In this document: in pieces, positions 6,225 through 19,240 of the stretch | Layout: each line of letters begins with the position of its first letter | How positions within the stretch are numbered: position 1 is the first letter of the stretch | From: Rhizobium sp. C1 | GTDB lineage: Bacteria; Pseudomonadota; Alphaproteobacteria; Rhizobiales; Rhizobiaceae | Direction: 5' to 3' | Length of the DNA: 64,000 nt | Assembly: GCF_021026335.1 (NCBI RefSeq) | Contig: NZ_JAJNCY010000004.1 | Coordinates: 248,001-312,000, forward strand | Made by a program: the position numbers and the translations under genes | Notes under the pieces: model-generated | The model's input: only the letters and a program-made list of their open reading frames with translations | Told to the model about the DNA's origin: nothing | The model's database searches: none

Positions 6225-6299
6225 TGGAGCGGGCGAAGGGATTCGAACCCTCGACCCCAACCTTGGCAAGGTTGTGCTCTACCCCTGAGCTACACCCGC
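6225..6299 (-). tRNA. tRNA-Gly (anticodon GCC)
   Basis: The minus strand folds as a 75-nt tRNA including encoded CCA. The acceptor arms GCGGGTG and CGCCCGC pair, the T arm contains GGTTCGAATCC, and the anticodon loop context TTGCCAA gives GCC for glycine. Confidence 0.95.
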
Positions 6300-17101: not shown

Positions 17102-17905
17102 ATGACTTTCACGCTTGCCACCTGGAACATCAACTCCGTGCGGCTGAGAATGCCGATCGTCGGGGAGTTCCTGACCCGTTTCCAGCCCGACATCCTGTGC
17201 CTGCAGGAAATCAAGTGCCGCGACGAGGAGTTTCCCTACGAGGCGTTCCGGGCGCTTGGTTATGTCCACATGTGTGTCAGCGGCCAGAAAGGCTACCACG
17301 GCGTCGCAACCGTTTCGAAGGCGAAGATCGACATTGACGAGACCCGCGACTTCTGCGGCGTCGGCGACAAGCGGCATCTGTCGGTCGACTTTGAACATGC
17401 CGGCCGTAACATTCGCCTGCACAATTTCTACGTTCCTGCCGGCGGCGACGAGCCGGACCGCACGATCAATCCGAAATTCGGCCACAAGCTCGATTTCATC
17501 GCGGAAATGCGGGCGATGCGCGCCCTCGACGGCTCCGGCCGCTCCTCGATCCTCGTCGGCGACCTCAACATCGCACCGCTGGAACACGACGTCTGGTCGC
17601 ACAAGCAGCTCTTGAAGATCGTCAGCCACACGCCTGTCGAGACCGATGGTCTGAAGGCCGTGATCGCCGAAGGCGGTTGGTCGGACCTGATGCGGGAAAA
17701 GTTTCCCGAGCCGCAAAAGCTCTACACCTGGTGGAGCTATCGCGCCAAGGACTGGGACGCTGCCGACAAAGGCCGCCGCCTCGACCATATCTGGTCATCG
17801 CCCGACCTCGCCCCACACGTCACCGACATCGAAATCCTGCGCGAAGCACGCGGCTGGACGCAGCCTTCGGACCATGTTCCGGTCATCGCGCGCTTCGCAT
17901 TTTAG
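17102..17905 (+). CDS. xth: Exodeoxyribonuclease III family protein (AP endonuclease)
   Basis: The 267-residue protein of the exonuclease III/APE1 fold acts in base excision repair, cutting at abasic sites and trimming 3' ends. Visible motifs are ATWNINSVR at the start, the metal-binding LCLQEIKC, GDLNIAPLEHDVW and the terminal SDHVPV. Start ATG 17102 sits right after the T-run of a terminator, with its only purine-rich ribosome site inside the hairpin. Either translation is restricted on read-through mRNA or a promoter within the lolA end starts transcription inside the hairpin. Confidence 0.9.
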   Translation: MTFTLATWNINSVRLRMPIVGEFLTRFQPDILCLQEIKCRDEEFPYEAFRALGYVHMCVSGQKGYHGVATVSKAKIDIDETRDFCGVGDKRHLSVDFEHAGRNIRLHNFYVPAGGDEPDRTINPKFGHKLDFIAEMRAMRALDGSGRSSILVGDLNIAPLEHDVWSHKQLLKIVSHTPVETDGLKAVIAEGGWSDLMREKFPEPQKLYTWWSYRAKDWDAADKGRRLDHIWSSPDLAPHVTDIEILREARGWTQPSDHVPVIARFAF

Positions 17906-17928
17906 TCGCATCCGCGCCCCTGGAAATA

Positions 17929-17956
17929 TTGACTCTTGCCCAAAAGAGCGTATGAG
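17929..17956 (+). promoter_or_regulatory. Putative promoter of the asd leader
   Basis: TTGACT (17929-17934) and TATGAG (17951-17956) are separated by 16 bp. Initiation about 7 bp downstream would give a short 5' leader just before the ribosome site of the leader ORF at 17981. Confidence 0.55.
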
Positions 17957-17980
17957 CAGCAGCGGAAAAGGACGGGCCCT

Positions 17981-18097
17981 ATGCTTTCGTGTGACAATCA
18001 CATGTCCGGCATGATCGACGCAGCGCTTTGCGACTGCGGTGCTTTCCGTTCTTTCGTTTCCAAAACCAAGGCCAAAACGACGACGAAAACCGTCTGA
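17981..18097 (+). CDS. 38-codon Lys/Thr-rich leader peptide, putative asd attenuator
   Basis: The ORF starts with ATG 17981, preceded by AAAAGGA with an 8-base gap, a strong ribosome site. It ends at TGA 18095-18097. Residues 27-37 read SKTKAKTTTKT, so nine of eleven codons are Lys or Thr (four Lys, five Thr), placed right at the end. Asd makes the common precursor of lysine and threonine, so ribosome stalling on these codons when Lys- or Thr-tRNA is short would fit attenuation as in thrL-type leaders. It is too short for ordinary gene calls. Expression and function are inferred, not known. Confidence 0.7.
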   Translation: MLSCDNHMSGMIDAALCDCGAFRSFVSKTKAKTTTKTV

Positions 18098-18205
18098 CGT
18101 CTCTGGCCTGCCGCTCTCTCCCCGGCCCGGCCGGGGACAGGATACCTGATGCCAATCAGGTTCCCCCCTCACCGGACGAGGAGAGAAAAGAAAGAGAGCG
18201 AAGAC
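18098..18205 (+). promoter_or_regulatory. asd: Structured region between leader ORF and asd
   Basis: Two hairpins follow the leader ORF: CCCCGG (18120-18125) with CCGGGG (18131-18136), and ACCTGAT (18144-18150) with ATCAGGT (18155-18161). They are bracketed by CGCTCTCT (18112-18119) and its perfect complement AGAGAGCG (18193-18200), which contains the purine-rich ribosome site of asd. No T-run follows, so control of translation initiation is more likely than transcription termination. Confidence 0.55.
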
Positions 18206-19240
18206 ATGGGTTTCAAGATTGCAATCGCGGGCGCAACCGGCAACGTAGGCCGGGAAATGCTCAACATTCTGTCCGAACGCGGCTTTCCGGCCGATGAGGT
18301 CGTGGCGCTGGCGTCCAGCCGTTCCGTCGGCACGGAAGTCTCCTTTGGCGACAAGACGCTGAGGGTTTCCAATCTTGAGAATTATGATTTCTCCGACACC
18401 GATATCTGCCTGATGTCGGCCGGTGGCGATGTCTCCAAGCGCATGTCCCCCAAGATCGGCGCACAGGGATGCGTCGTCATCGACAACTCCTCGGCCTGGC
18501 GCTACGATTCCGAAGTTCCGCTGATCGTGCCGGAAGTGAACCCCGACGCCGTCGAGGGCTTCACCAAGAAGAACATCATTGCCAACCCGAACTGCTCGAC
18601 CGCCCAGCTCGTCGTGGCTCTGAAGCCGTTGCATGACTATGCCAAGATCAAGCGCGTCGTCGTCTCGACCTACCAATCGGTCTCCGGCGCCGGCAAGGAC
18701 GGCATGGACGAGCTCTTCAACCAGACCCGCGCCGTCTTCGTCGCCGATCCGATCGAGAACAAGAAGTTCACCAAGCGCATCGCCTTCAACGTCATCCCCC
18801 ACATCGACGTCTTCATGGAAGACGGCTACACGAAGGAAGAGTGGAAGGTTCTCGCCGAAACCAAGAAGATGCTCGACCCGAAGATCAAGGTGACGTGCAC
18901 GGCCGTGCGCGTCCCGGTCTTCATCGGCCATTCGGAATCGGTCAACATCGAGTTCGAAAACGAGATCACCGCCGATCAGGCCCGCGAAATCCTGCGCGAA
19001 GCGCCGGGCTGCCTCGTCATCGACAAGCATGAAAACGGCGGCTACATCACGCCGCTCGAATGCGCCGGCGAAGACGCGACCTATATCTCGCGCATCCGCG
19101 AAGACGCCACGGTTGAAAACGGCCTCAACCTGTGGGTCGTCTCCGACAACCTGCGCAAGGGTGCGGCCCTCAACGCCGTTCAGATTGCCGAGCTTCTTGT
19201 CAATCGCGGCCTGATCAAGGCCAAGAAGAAGGCTGCCTGA
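18206..19240 (+). CDS. asd: Aspartate-semialdehyde dehydrogenase
   Basis: Asd reduces aspartyl phosphate to aspartate semialdehyde, the branch point to lysine, diaminopimelate, threonine and methionine. The 344-residue protein has the NADP-binding GATGNVGREML motif, the catalytic cysteine in IANPNCSTAQLV and the VSGAGKDGMDEL segment. ATG 18206 is chosen over an upstream in-frame ATG at 18149, which lies within the structured leader. The AGAGAG before the ATG could be masked by pairing with 18112-18119. It is probably controlled by the leader ORF at 17981. Confidence 0.95.
   Translation: MGFKIAIAGATGNVGREMLNILSERGFPADEVVALASSRSVGTEVSFGDKTLRVSNLENYDFSDTDICLMSAGGDVSKRMSPKIGAQGCVVIDNSSAWRYDSEVPLIVPEVNPDAVEGFTKKNIIANPNCSTAQLVVALKPLHDYAKIKRVVVSTYQSVSGAGKDGMDELFNQTRAVFVADPIENKKFTKRIAFNVIPHIDVFMEDGYTKEEWKVLAETKKMLDPKIKVTCTAVRVPVFIGHSESVNIEFENEITADQAREILREAPGCLVIDKHENGGYITPLECAGEDATYISRIREDATVENGLNLWVVSDNLRKGAALNAVQIAELLVNRGLIKAKKKAA

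Follow-up and report, generated by a model that had tools for sequence, protein, structure and literature searches.

In transcription attenuators of the thrL, trpL and ilv type, a short leader carries codons for the products of the pathway, the RNA can pair through segments 1:2, 2:3 or 3:4, and the position of the ribosome decides among them. In the rtpL leader of Bacillus subtilis and the ermC leaders, a stalled leader ribosome refolds the RNA and thereby frees the ribosome site of the next gene. The product of the enzyme encoded by asd, aspartate-semialdehyde dehydrogenase, is the common precursor for lysine (and cell-wall diaminopimelate), threonine, methionine and isoleucine. Leader-peptide transcription attenuators of the thrL, trpL and ilv type are reportedly covered by Vitreschak et al. 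2004.

A small ORF of Sinorhizobium meliloti 2011, SEP5, carries six Thr and three Lys codons toward its 3′ end and lies in the 5′-UTR of a gene that the authors term aspartate dehydrogenase (Hadjeras et al. 2023, PMC10117765). Its translation was detected by Ribo-seq and Western blot, and the passages on SEP5 in that article call it "possibly a leader peptide" and "conserved only in Sinorhizobium". Its reported composition is identical to that of SKTTAKTTTKTV from Sinorhizobium americanum (L002), and from composition and place we infer that SEP5 is the counterpart of the asd leader ORF described here; unlike the present account, the same passages give neither RNA structure nor mechanism. A sequence-only reading of our locus knew of no such leader described in rhizobia, and in this it was mistaken, SEP5 having already been reported (PMC10117765). 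The peptide is not new; the RNA logic, a proposed switch through helix 2:3, is. Corbino et al. 2005 (PMC1273637) report other alphaproteobacterial elements, and asd is not mentioned in the sections of that paper drawn on here. No asd attenuator was found among the titles and abstract openings surveyed in an open-access library, and the subscription literature may hold an earlier description.

The window is the whole 64,000-nucleotide stretch of Rhizobium sp. C1 DNA that was analysed, and all features below are on its + strand except where noted. It carries asd at 18206–19240 (NCBIfam NF011456, 4.7e-158, and TIGR01296, 6.3e-141, both above cut-off); 5′ of the leader region, a gene for exodeoxyribonuclease III ends at 17905. 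The asd frame also stays open over 18149–18205, back to an ATG at 18149, such that MPIRFPPHRTRREKKESED precedes MGFKI; the conserved start is 18206. The leader peptide ORF (17981–18097; MLSCDNHMSGMIDAALCDCGAFRSFVSKTKAKTTTKTV) runs for 38 codons from ATG 17981–17983 to TGA 18095–18097 and has the C-terminus SKTKAKTTTKTV; no NCBIfam model matched the 38-residue peptide. Its ribosome site, AAAAGGA (17966–17972), is separated from the ATG by 8 nt, and 5′ of the ORF is a promoter-like TTGACT-16-TATGAG (17929–17956), with boxes at 17929–17934 and 17951–17956 and a 16 nt spacer. The last eleven codons read K T K A K T T T K T V, nine of them Lys or Thr. All of this (the 38-codon ORF, AAAAGGA with its 8-base gap, a plausible promoter just 5′ of the ORF, and the count of nine in eleven) had been noted from the letters alone and is there in the sequence: the leader ORF is real. 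In 98 of 104 loci a TTGAC box occurs 38–65 nt 5′ of where the leader starts, compared with 3.6% of background 50-nt windows.

The Lys/Thr run, KTKAKTTTKT (18062–18091), occupies leader codons −11 to −2 and holds the putative stall codons, with a predicted stall window of codons −12 to −3. A GGCC at 18070–18073 (segment 1) sits inside the run. The only Ala codon of the run (18071–18073) belongs to this GGCC, whose predicted partner in helix 1:2 is a post-stop GGCC; it has been lost in L102, L108 and L110.

Rfam offers no known leader family for this region, with nothing near cut-off in 17900–18300, no match to a known aptamer (metabolite-binding riboswitch) in the leader region, and no leader match in 12 relatives. 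Searched at gathering scores, the window yields a single match, a tRNA gene at 6228–6299 (− strand). MH_s10 was rejected in the leader region, where it scores 14.3 bits against a cut-off of 81; it is also absent from the 12 relatives, and L186 has no matches at E values up to 1. A search of the genome for further Lys/Thr leaders gave 54 overlapping matches to a pattern of six Lys/Thr/Asn codons, no excess over a backward control. None of ten other pattern sites that were read ends a short ORF close before its stop as at asd (closest, 13 codons).

Conservation was followed in 110 near-relative loci, comprising 80 named loci (the best 80 of 589 by asd protein) and 30 further relatives, with our own locus counted. 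A leader was scored where at least six Lys/Thr fall in the 12 codons at an ORF end whose stop is 60–160 nt 5′ of asd. A Lys/Thr leader ending at a similar distance before asd is present in 104 of the 110 loci (own locus included). The sequence-only reading had placed a Lys/Thr leader upstream of asd, proposed testing whether the ORF and its run persist across relatives, and was to be given up if relatives lacked the ORF or its Lys/Thr codons; it survives, as ORF, tail and position are all kept in these 104. Four loci below the threshold have short forms such as SLTKTSIS (L097, L098, L101, L105), and two (L093, L106) have no Lys/Thr leader before asd. Across the same 110 loci, at least seven Lys/Thr in the last 12 codons are found at 96 of 128 stops in the interval upstream of asd and at none of 11,482 background stops, where the maximum is six (three cases).

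Among near relatives the N-terminal half of the leader is divergent and the tail ...K/T-A-KTTTKTV is kept. The Agrobacterium leader is SIRITAKTTIKTV, and elsewhere the leader ends in TTIKTKTTI (Hoeflea types) or KTTTKTTKTTA (Roseibium). Agrobacterium-type leaders (L014, L016, L042, L043, L047, L053, L059) apparently start with TTG and have Ile codons in the run; among the 104 leaders the best-scoring start is TTG in eight and GTG in two. Over 99 unique tails the Thr codons are ACC (238), ACG (224), ACA (41) and ACT (17), and the Lys codons are AAA (191) and AAG (58). Lys usage in seven genes of the window is the opposite of that in the run (AAG 96, AAA 19). Ile and Met make up 54 of 320 tail residues other than Lys or Thr, as against 116 of 1,238 upstream (p 0.0003), a signal that stays weak because a single base change separates each of them from Thr.

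Samples at the level of the order contain the leader in 55 of 95 distinct genomes (L190 and L197, which repeat genomes already sampled, are excluded) and, of 45 families, 24 have it; of 48 families sampled in other orders, four do. It is therefore common without being universal, and many families have no leader. Like L093 and L106, families f108, f120, f107, f104 and f106 of the order have asd without a Lys/Thr leader, which may reflect loss or another form of control.

Downstream of the leader, the sequence-only reading had seen two hairpins bracketed by CGCTCTCT (18112–18119) and its exact complement AGAGAGCG (18193–18200), with no T-run, and these are present. In this pairing (P1a) the sequestor 5′ arm (CGCUCUCU, 18112–18119) lies within the loop of helix 2:3, and the 3′ arm (AGAGAGCG, 18193–18200) overlaps the asd ribosome site, the asd ATG being at 18206. 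For alignment A1 we set aside near duplicates and divergent forms from the 110 loci, which left 72. In this alignment the inner seven pairs of P1a hardly vary within the Rhizobium type, and the outermost C-G is present in six of 68 loci. Covarying changes in the 8-bp pairing had been named as something to look for, and the alignment does not contain them: P1a yields no covariation evidence because no pair changed on both sides, and judged by alignment it is a Rhizobium-type feature. An alternative sequestor helix, P1b, pairs UCUCUCC (18115–18121) with GGAGAGA (18180–18186), just 5′ of the asd ribosome site; it is paired in 96.3% of cells over the 72 loci, with one compensatory change. In many families the sequestor 3′ arm stops short of the ribosome site, ending 13–30 nt 5′ of the ATG, and the case for full sequestration is therefore strongest in the lineage of the window itself.

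Hairpin A (CCCCGGC:GCCGGGG, 18120–18136) is mutually exclusive with helix 2:3, and hairpin B (ACCUGAU:AUCAGGU, 18144–18161) is variable in sequence. Folding of the window predicts several pyrimidine:purine stems. Long perfect stems were tried as a mark of the sequestor and rejected, with means of 7.2 Watson-Crick pairs in cognate and 6.4 in non-cognate combinations over 64 loci, a slight difference; stems of at least nine pairs showed no clear enrichment.

The proposed anti-sequestor is helix 2:3, in which segment 2 (GUCUCUGGCC, 18099–18108) pairs with GGCCGGGGAC (18129–18138) through 10 bp including two G-U pairs; its loop contains the 5′ arm of the stem at the asd ribosome site. We used an alignment-free covariation test that compares cognate with permuted duplex energies between segments, within versus between loci. 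A screen of 68 segment pairs, for which 57 of 64 representative loci were used, gave as its strongest pairs hairpin B, 2:3 (positions 0–18 after the stop with +20–48) and 3:4 (+10–28 with −26 to −8 of asd). With one locus per family in 24 families, L126 and L220 included (a first version with 22 families omitted L126 and L218), 2:3 has z −6.7 (p 0.0001), 3:4 has z −3.8 (p 0.0003) and hairpin B has z −6.3 (p 0.0001; −5.4 to −6.3 across families), while three control pairings have z −1.6, −1.4 and 0.2. The asd start is misplaced in L218 and L231. Within the window's family, represented by 23 hand-chosen loci, the order is the same (2:3, z −5.0; 3:4, z −3.3).

In alignment A1, helix 2:3 is paired in 93.2% of cells and five of its ten pairs have changes on both sides; none of 500 shuffles is as high, and a shifted partner pairs in 18–52%. 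Examples of its strands in relatives are UCUCUGGCU:AGCCGGGGA (L096) and UUUCCCUUGGCC:GGCCCGAGGGAGA (L071), and in L111, L113 and L120 the strands are quite different in sequence. A shuffled post-stop sequence also forms a 2:3 of at least 4 bp in 69% of cases, and 2:3 beats 95% of its own shuffles in nine of 22 families. Ratings drawn from related sequences are, in general, not independent. The sequences compared show a conserved leader and covarying bases in 2:3, in the sequestor region and in hairpin B, and by their covariation two alternative helices, 2:3 and 3:4, are both under selection.

A further predicted helix, 1:2, would pair AGGCCA at 18069–18074 (segment 1) with UGGCCU at 18104–18109 (segment 2). 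Its covariation is weak in the window's family (p 0.023) and absent across the 24 families (z 0.4), and we have rejected it as a general part of the system; outside the near relatives, asd would consequently be on when no ribosome occupies the leader.

Equilibrium folding of the full-length region does not give a switch. Masking by the ribosome barely alters the openness of the asd start in 100 loci, and 3:4 pairing falls, not rises, between a stalled ribosome and one at the stop codon in 68 of 104 loci; a thermodynamic switch was therefore rejected, since the asd start is unaffected and sequestor pairing shifts the wrong way in most loci. The switch would thus have to be kinetic. In a growing-transcript model the transcript ends 50 nt past the leader stop codon, at a point where the distal arm has yet to be made, and the fold at each ribosome position is a prediction. 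With the A site on codons −12 to −3, 2:3 is predicted to form in 85–94% of 104 loci; with the A site on earlier codons, 1:2 forms in 80–91% and 2:3 in 9–22%; on codon −2, 2:3 forms in 30%, and once the A site has reached the stop codon it forms in 0% of loci, with hairpin A in its place. For the window itself the model expects 0.1 pairs of 2:3 at codon −13, 12 at codons −12 to −3 and 0.1 at the stop codon. This stall window is robust, to within about one codon, to footprints of A+10 to A+14 (every second locus). The 104 loci are close relatives, so that the fit at codon level amounts to a single case observed repeatedly. In 22 representatives of other families (window included), 2:3 is predicted in 64–82% at codons −12 to −3 and in 0% at the stop, and helix 1:2 is mostly absent. 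Computed energies for the window are −36.2 kcal/mol for the closed stem, −26.5 for 2:3 plus hairpin B and −24.2 for hairpins A plus B; with the closed state favored by 10 kcal/mol over 2:3 plus B, only as a kinetic trap could 2:3 act. Helix 2:3 and the 8-bp sequestor have no bases in common in the window, and a pseudoknot may hold both.

From these folds we infer ribosome stalling, a kinetic trap and translation initiation as the output, in the following way. A ribosome would translate the 38-codon leader. When Lys- and Thr-tRNA are charged it would reach the stop codon and cover segment 2, hairpin A would form, the ribosome-site stem, P1a/P1b with hairpins A and B inside it, would shut, and asd would be poorly translated. 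When Lys or Thr is short it would stall on the Lys/Thr run, covering segment 1 and leaving segment 2 free to pair with 18129–18138 once that is transcribed; the sequestor 5′ arm would be looped out and asd translated. If the leader is not translated, in the Rhizobium type, 1:2 would take segment 2 and asd would be off. We consider it likely, with fairly good confidence, that this is a leader-peptide attenuator of asd acting mainly on translation initiation, and Asd is probably made when Lys or Thr runs short. The sequence-only reading, in which stalling controls the folding, is partly supported, being right in outline and incomplete in mechanism. Stalling is probable; the 8-bp CGCTCTCT:AGAGAGCG pairing on its own explains no switch, and its partner would be the competing helix (18099–18108 with 18129–18138), which was overlooked and has the stronger covariation.

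A rival with the same leader and the same stalling places the output in transcription, the hairpins after the leader ending transcription early, by a weak intrinsic or a Rho-dependent route, unless 2:3 forms. Three families sampled in other orders have the leader in 9 of 14, 9 of 13 and 6 of 13 loci, and by a single rule a GC hairpin followed by a U-run is present in all 24 of these leader loci, which speaks for this output; terminator-bearing loci there include L271, L274, L275, L282–L284 and L297–L305, among others. In most of them the 5′ arm of the terminator can pair with the post-stop segment (GCGGCC, GCGGGCC or AGGCCCC, for example), a pairing that is weak in L276, L277 and L281. Transcription attenuators of the textbook kind have just this arrangement, and its presence in these three families supports attenuation as the function of the family as a whole; a fourth family in another order (one genome) has no U-run by the rule. 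In some Mesorhizobium-like loci (L099, L100, L186, L188) UUUUCU or UUCUUC comes directly after a GC hairpin, and the pyrimidine-rich post-stop segment could suit Rho. Against this, the same rule finds terminators in only seven of 160 leader loci of the order, the window has UUCCCCCC and no U-run after hairpin B, and no intrinsic terminator with a U-run precedes its asd. For the window, then, a transcriptional output seems improbable, though it is the strongest of the rivals. The sequence-only reading had favored control of initiation for lack of a T-run, and with no U-tract in the window initiation is still the better guess here. More broadly, we lean slightly toward a widespread alphaproteobacterial asd attenuator that senses Lys- and Thr-tRNA jointly, Ile and Met codons standing in now and then. 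In it one sensor (leader plus 2:3) would have had its output exchanged in evolution, so that some orders use a transcription terminator and the window's order uses a stem at the ribosome site.

It is very unlikely that the peptide has a function in trans, with the conserved RNA as an element apart from it. There is precedent in the S. meliloti trp leader peptide peTrpL, for which a role of its own is described (PMC7298713), but in the asd leader only the C-terminal run is kept, with a freely divergent N-terminal part, and the run matches the modelled RNA switch codon by codon. Least credible of all is a Lys/Thr-rich ORF that arose by chance or RNA constraint, its conserved nucleotides serving folding and its coding incidental, for although the Rhizobium-type tail is nearly invariant in DNA and helix 1:2 accounts for the Ala GCC through its GGCC, amino acids persist while codons change over the 99 unique tails, the differing tails of other families are still Thr and Lys, and SEP5 was seen by Ribo-seq and Western blot, as its published description states (PMC10117765).

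If attenuation of asd by its leader is correct, two end products are counted at one branch point, a feedback at the level of expression in many plant-associated and environmental bacteria, and the model makes codon-exact predictions. Two outputs on one sensor would offer a way to test how attenuators shift between transcription and translation control, and SEP5, filed as Sinorhizobium-only, could be re-read as a member of a family spread over at least 24 families of the order. The asd leader resembles the thrL, trpL and ilv type in its product codons, its segments 1:2, 2:3 and 3:4 and a decision that would depend on ribosome position. Unlike that type, the system in the window's lineage has no U-tract terminator and its 3:4 would close the asd ribosome-site region, and the leader would control a single branch-point gene by Lys and Thr jointly. 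With rtpL and ermC it would share the principle of initiation control, although the genes, the signals and the helices are different.
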